Below are positions 13,714 through 27,838 of a stretch of 64,000 nucleotides of DNA, one piece after another. This stretch comes from Spirochaetales bacterium (GTDB lineage: Bacteria > Spirochaetota > Spirochaetia > SZUA-6 > JAFGRV01). The stretch's first letter is position 1. Each line of letters begins with the position of its first letter. The DNA is taken from contig JAFGHO010000085.1 of the NCBI GenBank assembly GCA_016930085.1, positions 1 to 64,000 on the forward strand, written 5' to 3'. Under the pieces are notes generated by a model. That model was given only the letters and a program-made list of their open reading frames with translations, ran no database searches and was not told the DNA's origin. Position numbers and translations under genes: made by a program.

Positions 13714-13729
13714 TGCAATATTTGTTCCA
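13714..13729 (-). promoter_or_regulatory. sigma-54 (-24/-12) promoter for glnA
   Basis: On the minus strand the sequence is TGGAACAAATATTGCA. The GG and GC pairs have the fixed spacing of the consensus TGGCAC-N5-TTGC. It is about 50 bases upstream of the glnA start. NifA/NtrC-type activators are encoded at 19052-20611 and 22572-24002. Confidence 0.7.
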
Positions 13730-15704: not shown

Positions 15705-16143
15705 AGACACCTCTTCACCTAAATAGAAGCAAAAAGCATACCATATAAATCAACAATAACAGATGTGAATAATTCATTATAAGTAAAGAATTTATAATAC
15801 GATTAATCGCATTGACCGGCCTGCTGTCGACAAAGCTGAAAGATTTCCTACATTAATGTATAACATCCTTTTTCCGAAAGTGAAAAACATGCCTTTTTGC
15901 ATATTGTCTGCCCCTTCTGTTTCACCTACCATCTTTAAAAGTAAATAAACGTTAAAGAAACCACTATAGATAAGAAGCAAAGTTGTAAAAAGATCCACGT
16001 TGTAGGTGGCATGCGATCTTACGATTGTTAATTTCAAGCGAAACACAAATTAATAAGAACATGCGTGGAATCGTATTCAACCGGAATCATACTGAATGTA
16101 TGGTTACTCTTCCGGATAATCCGGCGTTTGAGTGAGGTAAAGA
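15705..16143. other. intergenic gap, no gene supported
   Basis: This 439-base AT-rich stretch separates divergent aspS and the M28 peptidase gene. An 84-codon minus-strand frame at 15792-16046 has no ribosome site and an implausible composition, so I do not call it. Promoters for both flanking genes are expected here. A TATAAT-like hexamer for aspS lies on the minus strand near 15774-15779. No other structure stands out. Confidence 0.5.
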
Positions 16144-19051: not shown

Positions 19052-20611
19052 TCAGCCGCCTTTATACCGCTTCGGGTTTATTCCGAAGGCTTTAACGCGT
19101 AATCCCATAATCCGTTCCGTAATACCGAGATTGCGCGCCGCTTCAGCCATATTTCCCCTCGTTGACTTGAGTGCGTCACATATAAGCTCCCGTTCGAAAT
19201 TCTCAACCGCCTCCTTCAAATTGCCCGAATGCCTTGTGTTACTCGCCTCCGCGGTCTGGAGAGACGGCGGGAGGTGGTGTCCGTGAATGACACCGTCCAC
19301 ACTCAGAATAACGGCCCGTTCGATACAGTTTTCGAGTTCACGAACATTGCCCGGCCAATGGTAGGCCATCAGCATATCGATTGCCGGAGTCGATATTCGT
19401 TTTATCTCCTTGTTATTGGTACTGCCGTATTTTTTTATAAAATGATCGGCAAGGAGGATGATATCGGTCTTTCGCTCGCGCAGGGGGGGAATGTGGATGG
19501 GAAAGACATTGATTCTGTAGTAGAGGTCTTCCCTGAACCGTCCCTGTTTCATGAGTTCTTCGAGGTTCCTATTGGTTGCGGCAATGATCCGCACATTAAC
19601 TTTAATGGTACTCATGCCGCCGACACGTTCGAACTCTTTTTCCTGGAGTACCCGAAGGAGTTTTATCTGGGTCGTCGCGGAAATATCACCGATTTCATCC
19701 AAAAAAATCGTGCCGCCATCCGCGAGTTCAAAACGGCCTTTACGGGATGAAACGGCACCGGTAAAAGCGCCTTTTTCATGGCCGAAAAGCTCGCTTTCGA
19801 TGACTGAGTCTGGAAGGGCGGCACAGTTGACCTTGATAAAGGGATGCTTCGCGCGAAGGCTGTTGTAATGGATTGCATGGGCGATCAGTTCCTTGCCGGT
19901 TCCGCTTTCACCCCGAATAAGAACCGATGTATCGCTTTTGGAGACCTTTGCCACAAGGCTGTAGACATCCTGCATTTCACGTGAATTACCGATGATATTC
20001 TGCGGTTGGAAACGCTCCTGTAATTCTTCCAAAAGCCGTTTGTTTTCATCAACGAGTCTTTTTTTCTCTTCGATTGCCGACTGACGAAGCTGGACGGCCC
20101 GAGCGATCAGGGATGCAATAATCGAAAGAAGCCGGACATCCTCTTCAAGGGTGATGTTTTCATCGAAAAGTCTGTCGGCGCTGAGTGCCCCAACGGCTTC
20201 CTTCCCGATCTTGATGGGCACACAGATAAAGGCGATATTCGATTTATCGATTCCCTTGCGCGCCCCGGTTCTGTCGAGGAACTGGGGTTCCTCGGAAAGA
20301 CGGGGGACGACCATCGGTTTTCCTGTCTGAACCACCTGGCCGGTAATGCCCTCTCCCAAACGGTACCTTCCCCGCTGCTGTTGGCTTACCGAAAGTCCGT
20401 AGGCCTCTTCGATGTAGATCTCACCGGTGTTTCTGTCCAGCAGGGTAATCGTTCCGCGAAGCATCCCCATATGATCGGCGATGAGTTCAAACACGGGATT
20501 AATGACATCCCGAAGGTCGATACTCTGATTCAGGGTTTCACTGATTTCAAAAAGGAGGGTAAGCTCGTTTATTTTTCTTTTCAGTACCGTCTCTTTATCC
20601 GGTTGCGCCAT
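19052..20611 (-). CDS. NifA-like sigma-54 activator: GAF, AAA+, Fis HTH
   Basis: The start at 20611 gives 519 residues. An alternative at 20626 would place GGAGG directly against its ATG. Residues of about 20-170 form a GAF domain ([30 protein letters not shown]). The central AAA+ domain shows Walker A GESGTGKE, the sigma-54 contact loop GAFTGA, Walker B IFLDEIGD and [11 protein letters not shown]. The C-terminal Fis-type helix-turn-helix is [12 protein letters not shown]. It should remodel sigma-54 RNA polymerase to start transcription in response to a small ligand or partner at the GAF domain. It is divergent from the 21051 gene with its sigma-54 promoter, so it may regulate that gene. It could equally act on glnA. 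Confidence 0.93.
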
Positions 20612-20810
20612 CCTTTTCCCTCTCATCCTCCATTCAAACCTCTCTGTCCATATGGGACAACATCATGACCGGCTTTTTTGGGGTGCCTATAGACTATCTC
20701 TTTTCACACTATAAAATCAATCATGACAGCATATGAATCACTAAAAATGTTATCCTTTTTCTATCATTAATTTACAATTTGATCTACTAACCGTATCCGC
20801 TAAACATCAT

Positions 20811-20839
20811 ATTGAAACGATAAATTTCAGATTGAAACG
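20811..20839 (+). promoter_or_regulatory. paired direct repeats, candidate upstream activator sites
   Basis: ATTGAAACG occurs exactly twice, at 20811-20819 and 20831-20839, spaced 20 bases (about two helical turns). A short TGAAA-N7-TTTCA palindrome overlaps them. They lie about 90-115 bases upstream of the sigma-54 promoter at 20926-20941, the usual distance for enhancer-binding activators. Confidence 0.5.
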
Positions 20840-20925
20840 TGTACAGATGATTTCCATTTCCAAAACAATCCCTCTCAACTCATTATTTATTTATCCTGAT
20901 GTAAAATAAGGACGGACCAATCATA

Positions 20926-20941
20926 TGGCACAGCTTTTGCA
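20926..20941 (+). promoter_or_regulatory. sigma-54 (-24/-12) promoter
   Basis: TGGCACAGCTTTTGCA is a near-perfect match to TGGCAC-N5-TTGCA. It is 110 bases upstream of the lipoprotein at 21051 and is not inside a coding frame. Confidence 0.85.
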
Positions 20942-21050
20942 TTAATAAATTTTACGATGCCGCTTTTTCAGGAGCAACGGTATAACCCACAATTAAAATA
21001 CAGTTTTTCCCAGACCGGGAAAAGTTGTGATAAAAAGAAAGGAGGAATAA

Positions 21051-22220
21051 ATGAAAAAAAAGATAACCGTTTTGTTTGCGATCACTACTCTCTTCATTTT
21101 CGTTTCCTGTGAGTATCTGTTTATGCGAGAAGACAGTGAAAAACCACATATGGGGGGTTCACGGGAATATGCAGTTGAGGTGACGGAAAATTTGGCGGTA
21201 CTCGCGCCGTTATTCTCCGTCGTTATCAACAGCCATCCGGAAATACAGGAGGTAATACTCACTGAAACGGCCAAAATGTTCGACGGGGACAATGATGTAT
21301 TGTTTGAAACAATCAAGGATGTCAAGCTTTCACGTGACTACACCCGGAACCATCAAAATAAAACCTTTTTCGACCTTCTCGATGAAGAATACGAGAACCG
21401 GCAAAAATCACGGGGGACACACGATGAAAGGTTATCCTCCATTACCGGTTCGATACCTGATTTCAATCTCTACTATCATGATCCCCGGGAAAACAGAACC
21501 GATCCGTACAACGGAATAATCGTCACATCACTCCGTTACGATATCGATGATACCAGGATTGCGACACTCACCGGTTATGACGGAGAGGGCCATATCATCG
21601 AACTCTCTTCAGATCTCGAACCGGATTTTCCTGTTATCGTTTTGGGGATCAATGAACGAATCAGTCTTCATCAAGAGAATCATTATGAAGGACGGCATCT
21701 ATTGTATTCCGGAAACGAAATCCACCACGTTAAATCCAGAATGTCGGATAACAGCGAACCATGGTTTTTCGGCAGTCCCGAAATCTGGATGCTTTTTGCG
21801 GATTCATGTGATGAAAAGGGCGATACGAGCAGGGTTCTGGTATCGAAAAACCTGACTGATTTTAATAAAGAAAATACATGGTGGCAGAAGGATATTTACT
21901 GTTTACGCTGGAGTTCCATAACAGGAGACAGGTTTGGAATTTTTTATATGGAAGATGATGCGGATGCATGGTTCCATGACCTCAAGGAGATAACCCTGGA
22001 ACTGCAGGCGGAGGTCAGTCCTAAAATCGGGGGCGGGATCAAGTTCAGTTATGAAAAAGCAGTGAGTAACGGTGTTTTTGGCGGTAAAAAATGGTATGAC
22101 GAAGACGACTATCTCGGCGATGCCCTGGTGTATGGAGAGGATAATGGCAATTTAACAGCAGAAGGGCATAAGTATTCGACAGGTAACGTTGAGTTTTATT
22201 TAAAAACGATGGATTATTAG
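21051..22220 (+). CDS. lipoprotein of unknown function under sigma-54 control
   Basis: The protein has 389 residues and follows an AAAGGAGG site. A lipoprotein signal ends at FVSC (Cys20). The mature protein is acidic, has no transmembrane segment, and holds no motif I can assign. Conserved-looking blocks are WFFGSPEIWMLF, YCLRWSSITGDRFGIFYMEDD and KIGGGIKFSY. A DUF3103-like relation occurred to me but I cannot confirm it. The near-consensus sigma-54 promoter upstream and two enhancer-binding activators on either side indicate inducible expression of a surface or periplasmic protein, perhaps in a stress or nutrient response. Confidence 0.75.
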   Translation: MKKKITVLFAITTLFIFVSCEYLFMREDSEKPHMGGSREYAVEVTENLAVLAPLFSVVINSHPEIQEVILTETAKMFDGDNDVLFETIKDVKLSRDYTRNHQNKTFFDLLDEEYENRQKSRGTHDERLSSITGSIPDFNLYYHDPRENRTDPYNGIIVTSLRYDIDDTRIATLTGYDGEGHIIELSSDLEPDFPVIVLGINERISLHQENHYEGRHLLYSGNEIHHVKSRMSDNSEPWFFGSPEIWMLFADSCDEKGDTSRVLVSKNLTDFNKENTWWQKDIYCLRWSSITGDRFGIFYMEDDADAWFHDLKEITLELQAEVSPKIGGGIKFSYEKAVSNGVFGGKKWYDEDDYLGDALVYGEDNGNLTAEGHKYSTGNVEFYLKTMDY

Positions 22221-22571
22221 TCCTCATTGACTATGGCAGAAACAACACGCCGGCAAGGTATATAATGTTAAGTATAGTTTAAATAATAAACAACAGACTA
22301 TTATTTAAGAGAATACGATGATGATGATTTGACGGCTTTTCAAACATGGCAAAAACACGCCCCCGATCGTAGTATGCAGGATTAATAAAGTGATAAAAGG
22401 GGGCGTGTGCGCTGCCTATCGATCCGCTACACGATATCCACTTGAAAATACATGAGAAGAAATTTCACTTGCATGAGTTATTGAAAACTATTATCATGAC
22501 TGCCATGCCGTCAATACACATCCGGGGCACCGCATAAGCATACTCTTTATGACAGGAGTTTTAACAAGGCA
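22221..22571. other. intergenic gap with two inverted repeats
   Basis: No gene is supported. TTAAATAATA at 22279-22288 and TATTATTTAA at 22299-22308 are exact complements around ten bases, an AT-rich hairpin. ACACGCCCCC at 22355-22364 and GGGGGCGTGT at 22399-22408 form a GC-rich stem with a 34-base loop and no T-run. Either could mark transcript ends of the 21051 gene or a regulatory site for the NtrC-type gene that follows. Confidence 0.45.
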
Positions 22572-24002
22572 ATGAGTATATATCCTCCCTTTCCTCTGTT
22601 GATAGTCGACGATGAGAAAGATGTCTGTCAATCATATTGTTCACTTCTTGCCGACAACGGTATAACGAATGTTATCACATGCATCGACAGCAGAAAGTTA
22701 ATGAATATCATTGGCAAACAGCGTGTTTCACTCATTATCCTCGATCTCATGATGCCCTTTTTATCCGGTCATGATCTGCTTTCGTTGATCAGAAAAGAGT
22801 ATCCGGAGATACCGGTCATCATTGTCACGGCTTCGGAGGAAATCGGGTCAATAGCCAGATGCCTTAAAATCGGTGTATACGATTATGTCATAAAACCTGT
22901 CGACGATATGAGGCTGGTTACCTGCATCAAGCATGCCTTTACTGAAAACGAATTAAAGCAGGATATAAAGAAACTCAACACCTCATTACTCGAGACCACA
23001 TTACATCATCCGCACGTCTTTAGCGGGATTATCACAAACAGCGAATCCATGAAACGGATATTCAGGTACATTGAAGCGATCGCATCGAGTCCCAAACCCG
23101 TCCTCATAACGGGTGAAAGCGGGACGGGCAAGGAATTGATAGCCCGCGCCATCCACTACTCAAGCGGGCGTACCGGAAATTTTGTACCGGTCAATATCAG
23201 CGGTCTCGATGAAGTGATGTTCTCAGACACTATTTTCGGCCATACAAAAGGCGCTTTTACCGGCGCTTCCGAGACAAGGAAAGGTCTTATTGAAAAAGCT
23301 TCAGGTGGAACGATATTTCTCGATGAAATCGGGGACCTGCAGCCGGCCTCCCAGATAAAACTTCTTCGCCTTCTTCAGGAGAACGAATACTATATGCTCG
23401 GCTCTGATGTGATAAGGACAACGACCGCAAGAATGATTTTCGCGACAAATACCCCTCTGGATGAGAAACAACTTACCGGTAATTTCAGAAAAGACCTTTA
23501 TTACCGTTTGATGACGCACAACATCAAGCTGCCCCCGCTCCGTAAACGGTCAGGCGATATACCCGTCCTCCTGCGTCATTTTGTCGGAAAAGCGGCATCG
23601 CAATTGAGAAAACAGGTCCCGGAGATCCCGGAACAACTCTATTTTCTCCTCGAAAAATATCCCTTTCCGGGTAATATCAGGGAACTGGAAGCCATGGTAA
23701 CTGATGCGGTCAGCGTCAATGAGGAACCCATACTTCCTGTGGGTCTGTTCTGTGATCATATAAGCGACCGGACAGTGACCCCCGCCCCTGAATCATATGA
23801 ATCCGTTACCGGTATAATCACGATAAGCGGAAAACTTCCGAAACTGAAAGATGTCGAACGTTACCTCATCAACCGGGCCATGAAACAGACAAACGGGAAC
23901 ATGACCGCCGCCGCTCGTCTTGTCGGCATTTCACCCGCAACCATGCTCAGACGCATAAAGGAAGAGAAAGAGCGGGATTATTCCGGCGGACTCGACAATT
24001 AA
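22572..24002 (+). CDS. NtrC-family response regulator
   Basis: The protein has 476 residues. Residues 8-120 are a receiver with Asp58 ([10 protein letters not shown]) as likely phospho-acceptor and a Lys in DYVIKPVDD. The AAA+ core carries Walker [23 protein letters not shown] and [10 protein letters not shown]. The C-terminal Fis-type HTH reads [12 protein letters not shown]. The kinase gene follows 16 bases after its stop, so the pair is a two-component system. Its phosphorylated form should activate sigma-54 promoters. Candidates in the window are upstream of 21051, 26609 and glnA. Confidence 0.94.
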
Positions 24003-24018
24003 CGAACCGGAGATGACG

Positions 24019-25251
24019 ATGGACCCTGTTTTCAATGAGTTTCCTTTGCTGCAAACGGACGACCGGCTTTTCGTGACGCGCCTTCTCCTGGCAACCGGGG
24101 ACAGAGACTTTGTTGAAGGACTTTACGCTTCTTTTTTGAAATCCGGCGAATATCGTCTTGAAACAGCCGTCGACCGTGAGGGCATACTCAGCCATTTCAG
24201 GAATCGCGGACCGAAAATCCCGGACATCCTCATTATCGATGCCGGCCTCCCCGGCGGACCGGTCGATAAAATTTGTACCGAAGTGAGAAAAGAATTTCCG
24301 AAAACGGTAGCGGCGATCATCGCCGTTGTGTCCGGAAGGGAGACGGACGAAATCCGGGCGCTTTACGAATCAGGGGTGAATGATTGTATGACAAAGCCGT
24401 TTTCACACGAAGAACTGATCCTGCGTATCAAAGCCCAGGCGGAAATCCTCCACCTTAGAAAAAAAGAAACGATGATCAACCACCAGCTTGCCCGGATCGA
24501 CAGCCTCATCACCCTCGGTGAGGCTTTATCCGGTATTATGCATGAAATCGGGAACGTTATATCGGTGATCAAAATAGACACCCGGCTTTTACGAAACAGA
24601 TTCACCGCCGTAAAAGGTGTACTCGACGAATACCTGGAAACCCGGGGTGATTTTCCGGTCGGCTCCCGCTCATATTCGGCGGTACGGGATCGTCATCATG
24701 AGGTGTATGAGAGAATACTAAGAAATATTTCAAGAATTACGAAACTCGCCGATTCGATAAAGGCCTTCGCGAAGAAGGAGTCCATGCGCGGTGAGGAGGT
24801 CGTTATTGCGGATGTCGTAAAAGAAGCGTATAAACTATGCCGGCATAAAGCCCGGAAATCCTGCGTTCGATGGCGAAAGAAAATACCGAAGAATCTGCCT
24901 CCCGTGCCGGGCAACTTTCAGTTTCTGCTTCAGGCGATGGTCAATCTTTTTATCAATGCAATCGAGGCGGCGGACAAACCGGATCCGTTCATTGGGGTTA
25001 CTCTTCATTATCAAAAACGGGCGGCCCTCATGTATATTATCATCGAAGATAACGGCCGCGGTATCGAAGAACAATATCGAAAACGGATATTCGAACCTTT
25101 TTTTACCACAAAGCAAGCCATCGGAGGTACGGGACTGGGGCTGCCGCTTGTATTGAAAATCATCGAACGGCATGACGGTGTTATCCGCATCGAGTCCGAA
25201 CAAGGTGAAGGGACAATCGTAACAATTATAATCCCGGCGGCAAAAACGTGA
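24019..25251 (+). CDS. histidine kinase with N-terminal receiver domain
   Basis: The ATG at 24019 gives 410 residues and sits seven bases after GGAG; the ATG at 24013 is too close. Residues 15-140 form a receiver-like domain (Asp74 in ILIIDAGLPG, Lys126 in CMTKPFS). The H-box is SGIMHEIGN with His175. The ATPase has NLFINAIEAAD, EDNGRGIEEQ, a KRIFEPFFTTK and GLGLPLV boxes. It lacks membrane helices, so it senses a cytoplasmic signal or receives phosphate from another kinase. The pair with the NtrC-like regulator upstream is almost certainly a cognate set. Confidence 0.92.
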   Translation: MDPVFNEFPLLQTDDRLFVTRLLLATGDRDFVEGLYASFLKSGEYRLETAVDREGILSHFRNRGPKIPDILIIDAGLPGGPVDKICTEVRKEFPKTVAAIIAVVSGRETDEIRALYESGVNDCMTKPFSHEELILRIKAQAEILHLRKKETMINHQLARIDSLITLGEALSGIMHEIGNVISVIKIDTRLLRNRFTAVKGVLDEYLETRGDFPVGSRSYSAVRDRHHEVYERILRNISRITKLADSIKAFAKKESMRGEEVVIADVVKEAYKLCRHKARKSCVRWRKKIPKNLPPVPGNFQFLLQAMVNLFINAIEAADKPDPFIGVTLHYQKRAALMYIIIEDNGRGIEEQYRKRIFEPFFTTKQAIGGTGLGLPLVLKIIERHDGVIRIESEQGEGTIVTIIIPAAKT

Positions 25252-26552: not shown

Positions 26553-26568
26553 TGGCACATTTTTTGCA
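26553..26568 (+). promoter_or_regulatory. sigma-54 (-24/-12) promoter
   Basis: TGGCACATTTTTTGCA matches TGGCAC-N5-TTGCA exactly and is 41 bases from the ATG at 26609. Confidence 0.85.
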
Positions 26569-26608: not shown

Positions 26609-27838
26609 ATGAAAGTAATGACTGATATATTTTCCGTTATGGCGGCGATCGGCCTCGCAAATGGAATGTTTGTCATCATTGTATTGTTCAAAATCAAAAA
26701 AGGGGATACCGGCTTTAACGGGTTTATCTCGTTGATTTTTATCTGCTTTACTATCGATGCCTGCTGGGGAATAGTCTTTCAAAACATCCTCCGCCATCTA
26801 TTGCCGTCATTGGTTCACTTCTGGTCCCCCGTTCGTCTGCTTTACGGCCCGATCCTCTACTTCTACGCCAAAACGACGGCGGCAGACGATGTTAACATCG
26901 GGATAAAACAATGCATCCATTTTCTTCCGTTTTTCCTTTCTCTGGGTTATTTGCTGCTCTTCTTCTCTGACGGATTTACTTCAATCGGAAATATGGCGGG
27001 ACCATCCACCCATCCGCTCTTTTTAATCACGCAGGATAAAACGGATATTGTTATCGCTCTTTCCCAATTCCATTTATTCATGTACCTCCTCCGTATTATA
27101 CCGATATACAGGAAATATGGAAGCGAACACTGTTCTCACGGCGATCCCCGTCACGGATTTCTTCGTTATTTTCTGTTCGTCTTTTTCGCCATACTGCTGA
27201 TTAATCTTGTAACGGAAATATCGGCCGCCGCAGGGGGTAATCGGTCTATCGCCTTCGGAATATATCCGGCCCTTCTCCCCGTTATTATCTTTATAAGCGG
27301 ATGTACAATGCTGATCCGTATCGCGAAACCCAGGAATGATAAAGCCGATGAAATTGAAGACGAAGCACACAACAGACCCAAATACACGCGAATCGGATTG
27401 TCGCAAAAGGAAGCCGGGAATTATATTAGCAAACTGAACGCGATCATGGAACGCGAAAAGTTGTATACCGATCCGAATATCGCCCTCCCCACGCTGGCGA
27501 AAAAGCTTTCCATACCGCGAAACACCCTCTCGTATATCATCAACAATTATATGGGACTCACCTTCTATGATTTTATCAACAAATTCCGCGTCGAACAGGT
27601 AAAAGAATTACTCGAAGATCCGGAGCATCAGGAAAACAATATACTCGAAATCGCCTATTTTTCCGGCTTCAACTCGAAATCTTCATTCAACAGCGTTTTC
27701 AAGAAACTGACGAACTTCTCCCCTTCCGAATACAGGAGGAAATTCGTCGCCACTCCCGGCTCGAGGGGAATAGATTCCCACCTGCTTTCGGGAGAAAGCC
27801 GTATGCATTCGGTAATGGGATACGCACACAGCCGGTAA
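26609..27838 (+). CDS. membrane-bound AraC-family regulator
   Basis: The start at 26609 is chosen because the sigma-54 promoter ends just before it, giving 409 residues. The first 230 residues contain about seven hydrophobic helices (IGLANGMFVIIVLF, FISLIFICFTIDACW, FFLSLGYLLLFF). The C-terminus is an AraC-type HTH (LSIPRNTLSYIINNYMG, EIAYFSGFNSKSSFNSVFKKLTNFSPSEYR). Such proteins sense an extracellular or membrane signal and bind DNA from the membrane. Its control by sigma-54 is unusual for AraC-type genes. Targets are unknown. Confidence 0.88.
   Translation: MKVMTDIFSVMAAIGLANGMFVIIVLFKIKKGDTGFNGFISLIFICFTIDACWGIVFQNILRHLLPSLVHFWSPVRLLYGPILYFYAKTTAADDVNIGIKQCIHFLPFFLSLGYLLLFFSDGFTSIGNMAGPSTHPLFLITQDKTDIVIALSQFHLFMYLLRIIPIYRKYGSEHCSHGDPRHGFLRYFLFVFFAILLINLVTEISAAAGGNRSIAFGIYPALLPVIIFISGCTMLIRIAKPRNDKADEIEDEAHNRPKYTRIGLSQKEAGNYISKLNAIMEREKLYTDPNIALPTLAKKLSIPRNTLSYIINNYMGLTFYDFINKFRVEQVKELLEDPEHQENNILEIAYFSGFNSKSSFNSVFKKLTNFSPSEYRRKFVATPGSRGIDSHLLSGESRMHSVMGYAHSR

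Follow-up and report, generated by a model that had tools for sequence, protein, structure and literature searches.

A lipoprotein gene in a Spirochaetales bacterium is preceded by an exact sigma-54 promoter sequence and flanked by genes for two sigma-54 activators. The window, meaning the whole stretch of 64,000 nucleotides that was analysed, also contains nitrogen-assimilation genes near one of these activators. The explanation that we favor, and to which we give roughly an even chance, is that the promoter, a tandem element upstream of it, and the response regulator and kinase encoded downstream control the lipoprotein gene, while the divergently encoded NifA-type protein serves nitrogen metabolism. 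Coordinates are collected in Table 1.

Table 1. Features of the lipoprotein locus and the neighboring nitrogen genes (window positions)
Feature	Position	Strand	Remarks
Sigma-54 (-24/-12) promoter TGGCACAGCTTTTGCA	20926-20941	+	Very probably real: exact consensus, genome-wide pattern enrichment, genome encodes sigma-54
Imperfect tandem repeat, two 22-nt copies (20798-20819 and 20818-20839)	20798-20839	+	Proposed upstream activating sequence
Perfect dyad TTTCA-GAT-TGAAA	20825-20837	.	Inside second repeat copy; from sequence
Degenerate dyad CATCA-TAT-TGAAA	20805-20817		Inside first repeat copy; from sequence
Lipoprotein, 389 aa	21051-22220	+	Member of a distantly DUF3103-like family whose C-terminal part is tentatively C2-like
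NtrC-type response regulator	22572-24002	+	Receiver, sigma-54 AAA+ with GAFTGA, Fis-type HTH
Soluble receiver-histidine kinase	24013-25251	+	
NifA-type enhancer-binding protein	19052-20626	-	GAF, sigma-54 AAA+, Fis-type HTH; divergent from lipoprotein gene
Inferred site of NifA-type regulator, ATACATTAATGTAG	15848-15861	-	Upstream of aspS-glnA
Sigma-54-like site TGGTATGCTTTTTGCT	15728-15743	-	Before aspS
Sigma-54-like site TGGAACAAATATTGCA	13714-13729	-	Before glnA

A near-consensus sigma-54 promoter had been proposed from the letters of the sequence, and this proposal is borne out. The element matches TGGCAC-N5-TTGCW with 0 mismatches, has the -24 GG and -12 GC at their fixed spacing, and lies 109 bases 5' of the lipoprotein gene. 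With up to one mismatch allowed, the pattern occurs 3 times in the window, compared with 0.62 expected. Across the host genome (5.36 Mb in 135 contigs, with all genome-wide statistics based on pattern searches), the exact pattern is present 14 times, versus 3 for a reversed-pattern control. FlaA genes in this genome identify it as that of a spirochaete. Nearly all 14 sites are found shortly upstream of an ORF, and one (L007) is within an open frame. The ORFs behind these sites, whose functions were read from translations, encode an Hsp20-like protein, two sigma-70-family factors, a PII-like protein (glnB), an ammonium transporter (amtB), response regulators, two more lipoproteins located close together on one contig (C4), and the window lipoprotein. 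The genome also encodes enhancer-binding proteins and sigma-54 itself (Sigma54_DBD, 196 bits). We consider the promoter very probably real, and the lipoprotein gene would be transcribed from it. Transcription from sigma-54 promoters starts ~11-12 bases past the -12 element, and the predicted start in this case is near position 20952.

The sequence-only reading had also pointed to direct repeats at a 20-base step. The ATTGAAACG pair (20811-20819 and 20831-20839) is indeed present, and it proves to be part of a longer repeat, CGCTAAACATCATATTGAAACG / CGATAAATTTCAGATTGAAACG, whose copies are identical at 18 of 22 positions. The 9-mer pair alone is weak evidence: when the 424-bp intergenic region is dinucleotide-shuffled, 49% of the shuffles contain some 9-mer repeat, and 10.5% contain one within 45 bp. 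By contrast, the score of the longer repeat is matched at any offset from 9 to 45 in only 0.15% of shuffles (P ~0.0015, within the 424-bp intergenic region). Upstream activating sequences are paired sites ~80-200 bases upstream of the transcription start. The repeat ends 86 bases before the promoter, with the centres of its 22-nt copies at about -120 and -140 relative to the inferred start, and this position gives it more weight. Thus, the tandem element is a candidate operator that may function as an upstream activating sequence.

A rather unlikely alternative is that the promoter is real and the repeat either arose by chance or has another role, for example at the divergent NifA-type gene's own promoter. 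The repeat is a single occurrence: TTGAAACG-N12-TTGAAACG with 0 mismatches is found once in the host genome, and the repeat pair is not found upstream of any other exact sigma-54 site there. The repeat pair followed by TGGCAY at 74-104 bases gave no exact match in 84,980 species genomes. The search of related genomes for repeat plus promoter that had been suggested earlier was likewise empty, because no lipoprotein ortholog was found among them; this outcome speaks neither for nor against the repeat as an operator. Moreover, if the window has ~30 intergenic regions, the P value of 0.0015 becomes ~0.05 for the window as a whole, and significance after this correction is borderline. The single occurrence, the lack of conservation and this correction favor the alternative, but the repeat is suitably spaced from the promoter, its 20-nt step is nearly helical, and its score is reached at offsets 20-22 in 0 of 2000 shuffles.

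Two other roles for the repeat were considered and rejected. The dyad form TTTCA-N3-TGAAA as a regulon-wide site occurs at 42 places in the genome, which is not beyond chance; most of the 32 places inspected are inside long open frames, and 0 are ahead of a good sigma-54 site. The repeat was also rejected as the NifA-type regulator's site, as it lacks TACA-N4-TGTA.

Both flanking genes encode enhancer-binding regulators, as the sequence-only reading had it, but the two are not equal candidates. The site inferred for the NifA-type protein is absent at the lipoprotein promoter, and the response regulator is thus the better candidate. Its domains are a receiver, sigma-54 AAA+ and HTH_8, and the kinase gene follows after a 10-base gap and is probably cotranscribed. 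The response regulator belongs to an expanded set, with seven further strong matches in the host genome, and has no close ortholog; the best match elsewhere is 53%. Its HTH differs from those of the paralogs, which are mostly GNQSxAAxxLGxxxSTLSRRL-like, and this divergence fits a private operator. The kinase has distant matches only. A regulator and a lipoprotein that both lack orthologs, together with a single-copy element, fit a private local module. We propose that the receiver-histidine kinase would phosphorylate the response regulator in answer to an inducing signal, that the response regulator would bind the tandem element and activate the promoter, and that the cluster would thus be a local signal-to-lipoprotein module. 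Our judgement on the response regulator as activator is evenly balanced.

Several findings count against this explanation. Neither the lipoprotein nor the response regulator has an ortholog in the genomes searched. The genome contains many other sigma-54 activators, and neighborhood is weak evidence. The response regulator gene is separated from the lipoprotein gene by a 351-bp gap, and neither a repeat copy nor a clear sigma-54 promoter is seen before it. It is conceivable, and in our estimate unlikely, that control of the promoter lies with a distant enhancer-binding protein, be it a response-regulator paralog or a different sigma-54 activator, and that the neighbors are incidental. The seven strong paralogs and the lack of conserved synteny are consistent with this possibility; however, no other repeat pair was found near the paralogs inspected. 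The 351-bp gap also contains a long inverted repeat, CACGCCCCC...GGGGGCGTG, at 22354-22411, with no T run after it.

The divergent regulator resembles the NifA family (TIGR01817), scoring 562.7 bits against a cut-off of 528.85, with a profile match that stops before the HTH. One strong match to this protein is found in each of 20 of 26 genomes, a count that includes the host genome. The corresponding gene is directly before glnA in six relatives (G025, G021, G014, G009, G022 and G019), and this linkage suggests a role in nitrogen assimilation. In another relative (G004), a homolog with 55% identity resides beside nif-like genes, which were read from translations as nitrogenase-like and PII-like ORFs.

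Palindromes of the form CTACA-N4-TGTAG, or one-letter variants, are located ahead of glnA in G025, G014, G009, G019 and G022, and no TACA-N4-TGTA-type palindrome is located there in G021. They are single in G025 and paired ~30 bases apart in the other four, and they start 90-122 bases before a sigma-54 site. In the host genome, TACA-N4-TGTA-type sites precede glnB, amtB and aspS-glnA. Only 3 TACA-N4-TGTA sequences occur in the 64-kb window, so chance is unlikely to account for sites at both glnB and amtB. A genome-wide search for this site plus a promoter, in which the allowed gap was too narrow, returned only the aspS site and 2 control matches; the evidence for the site comes from the relatives and from glnB and amtB. 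From its linkage to the NifA-type gene, the predicted site of this regulator is (C/A)TACA-N4-TGTA(G/T). The classical NifA site is TGT-N10-ACA. Thus, the protein is like the NifA family in its score and in the nif-like neighbors of one homolog, but it differs in its linkage to glnA in several relatives and in its predicted site. The sigma-54-like sites at aspS and glnA, together with the aspS palindrome, link both genes to the nearby NifA-type regulator.

Most likely, the NifA-type regulator runs nitrogen assimilation (aspS-glnA, glnB and amtB) and not the lipoprotein gene. The least probable of the alternatives is that it activates the lipoprotein gene as part of a response to nitrogen, via a site that is degenerate or of another type. 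Divergent gene pairs are often under common control. In Leptospira, a GAF-type activator, EbpA, supports nitrogen metabolism together with sigma-54, whose motifs precede amtB and predicted lipoprotein genes (PMC12655853). Against this alternative, the 220 bases ahead of the promoter contain no TACA-N4-TGTA here, even with 1 mismatch, and no such pairing with the lipoprotein was seen at the NifA-type orthologs.

A lipoprotein-type signal, MKKKITVLFAITTLFIFVSC, is encoded in the lipoprotein ORF, which also has a GGAGG ribosome site. The description of the protein as an orphan is correct with respect to close relatives, none of which were found in 84,980 species genomes, but distant paralogs and relatives do exist. 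In a profile search, just 4 of the 297 genomes from the class contained relatives, with two paralogs in the host genome. No match was found in phage records or, by profile, among solved structures. The protein is a member of a rare spirochaete family that is distantly similar to DUF3103 (PF11301). The window lipoprotein itself scores 14.5 bits, below the cut-off of 25, whereas relatives approach or reach the cut-off: weak matches occur in five of eight aligned family members, and one paralog is just above it. No mention of DUF3103 was found in the literature searched. The gene for a DUF3103-like lipoprotein paralog (contig C37, L060 3062-8160) is oriented divergently from an ECF-type sigma gene, which is followed by a gene for a FecR-like membrane protein.

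Two family members give weak Pfam matches to C2. A Foldseek search with a relative's model, which has moderate confidence (67.7), produced a list headed by C2 domains (E ~0.015, probability ~0.85), with Z ~5 in a second look. These values could reflect a common arrangement alone. The fold matches of the window lipoprotein carry little weight because the confidence of its model is low (54.6). The C-terminal part of the family is thus tentatively C2-like. The lipoprotein would have its anchor at the cell surface or in the periplasm. It would combine a helical N-terminal part with a possible C2-like beta-sandwich, for which calcium, lipid or polymer are conceivable ligands. In the most elaborate form of our proposal, which we regard as somewhat doubtful, the cluster would form a lineage-specific module that is complete in itself. 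Its dedicated kinase and its sigma-54 response regulator, acting at a private operator, would regulate just one lipoprotein, whose C2-like domain possibly binds calcium, and the module would be separate from the adjacent nitrogen sigma-54 regulon.

Among spirochaete surface proteins, lipoproteins form a major class, and to our knowledge few cases of their direct control by sigma-54 are known. The locus offers a concrete promoter, a candidate operator and a candidate regulator. In addition, the comparison of relatives yields a predicted site for a nitrogen regulator of NifA type with a wide distribution in the spirochaete order. In Borrelia, the Rrp2-RpoN-RpoS pathway brings about lipoprotein expression by way of an NtrC-type response regulator and sigma-54, and control of the lipoproteins runs through RpoS. 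The present locus would also combine an NtrC-type response regulator with sigma-54; in contrast to Borrelia, the sigma-54 promoter directly precedes the lipoprotein gene. Full sigma-54 sites are also present at the two sigma-70-family genes (L008 and L014), an association reminiscent of the Borrelia cascade from sigma-54 to RpoS.

A close parallel is found in Leptospira, where the EbpA/EbpB-RpoN system includes one GAF-type and one receiver-type activator, and where sigma-54 motifs precede amtB and two predicted lipoprotein genes, with glnA proposed as well (PMC12655853). Both cases are spirochaete sigma-54 systems with these two activator types and with sigma-54 sites at amtB and lipoprotein genes; this likeness is one of arrangement. 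Unlike in Leptospira, the receiver-type activator here adjoins the lipoprotein gene, where the site class of the GAF-type activator is not seen. A comparative study has tied sigma-54 to genes for the bacterial exterior, lipoproteins included (PMC3162934). With sigma-54 motifs before lipoprotein genes already described in Leptospira, the locus is a tidy and fairly ordinary example of a known arrangement.

Other exact sigma-54 sites precede further genes. A second site in the window, TGGCACATTTTTTGCA (26553-26568), is 40 bases 5' of an ATG that is probably the start codon for a membrane-type AraC-family regulator (26609-27838, + strand); no upstream site was recognised for this promoter. On contig C4 (L146), two similar neighboring lipoprotein genes (~4939 and 8220) are each preceded by an identical sigma-54 site, TGGCACTGAAATTGCT.
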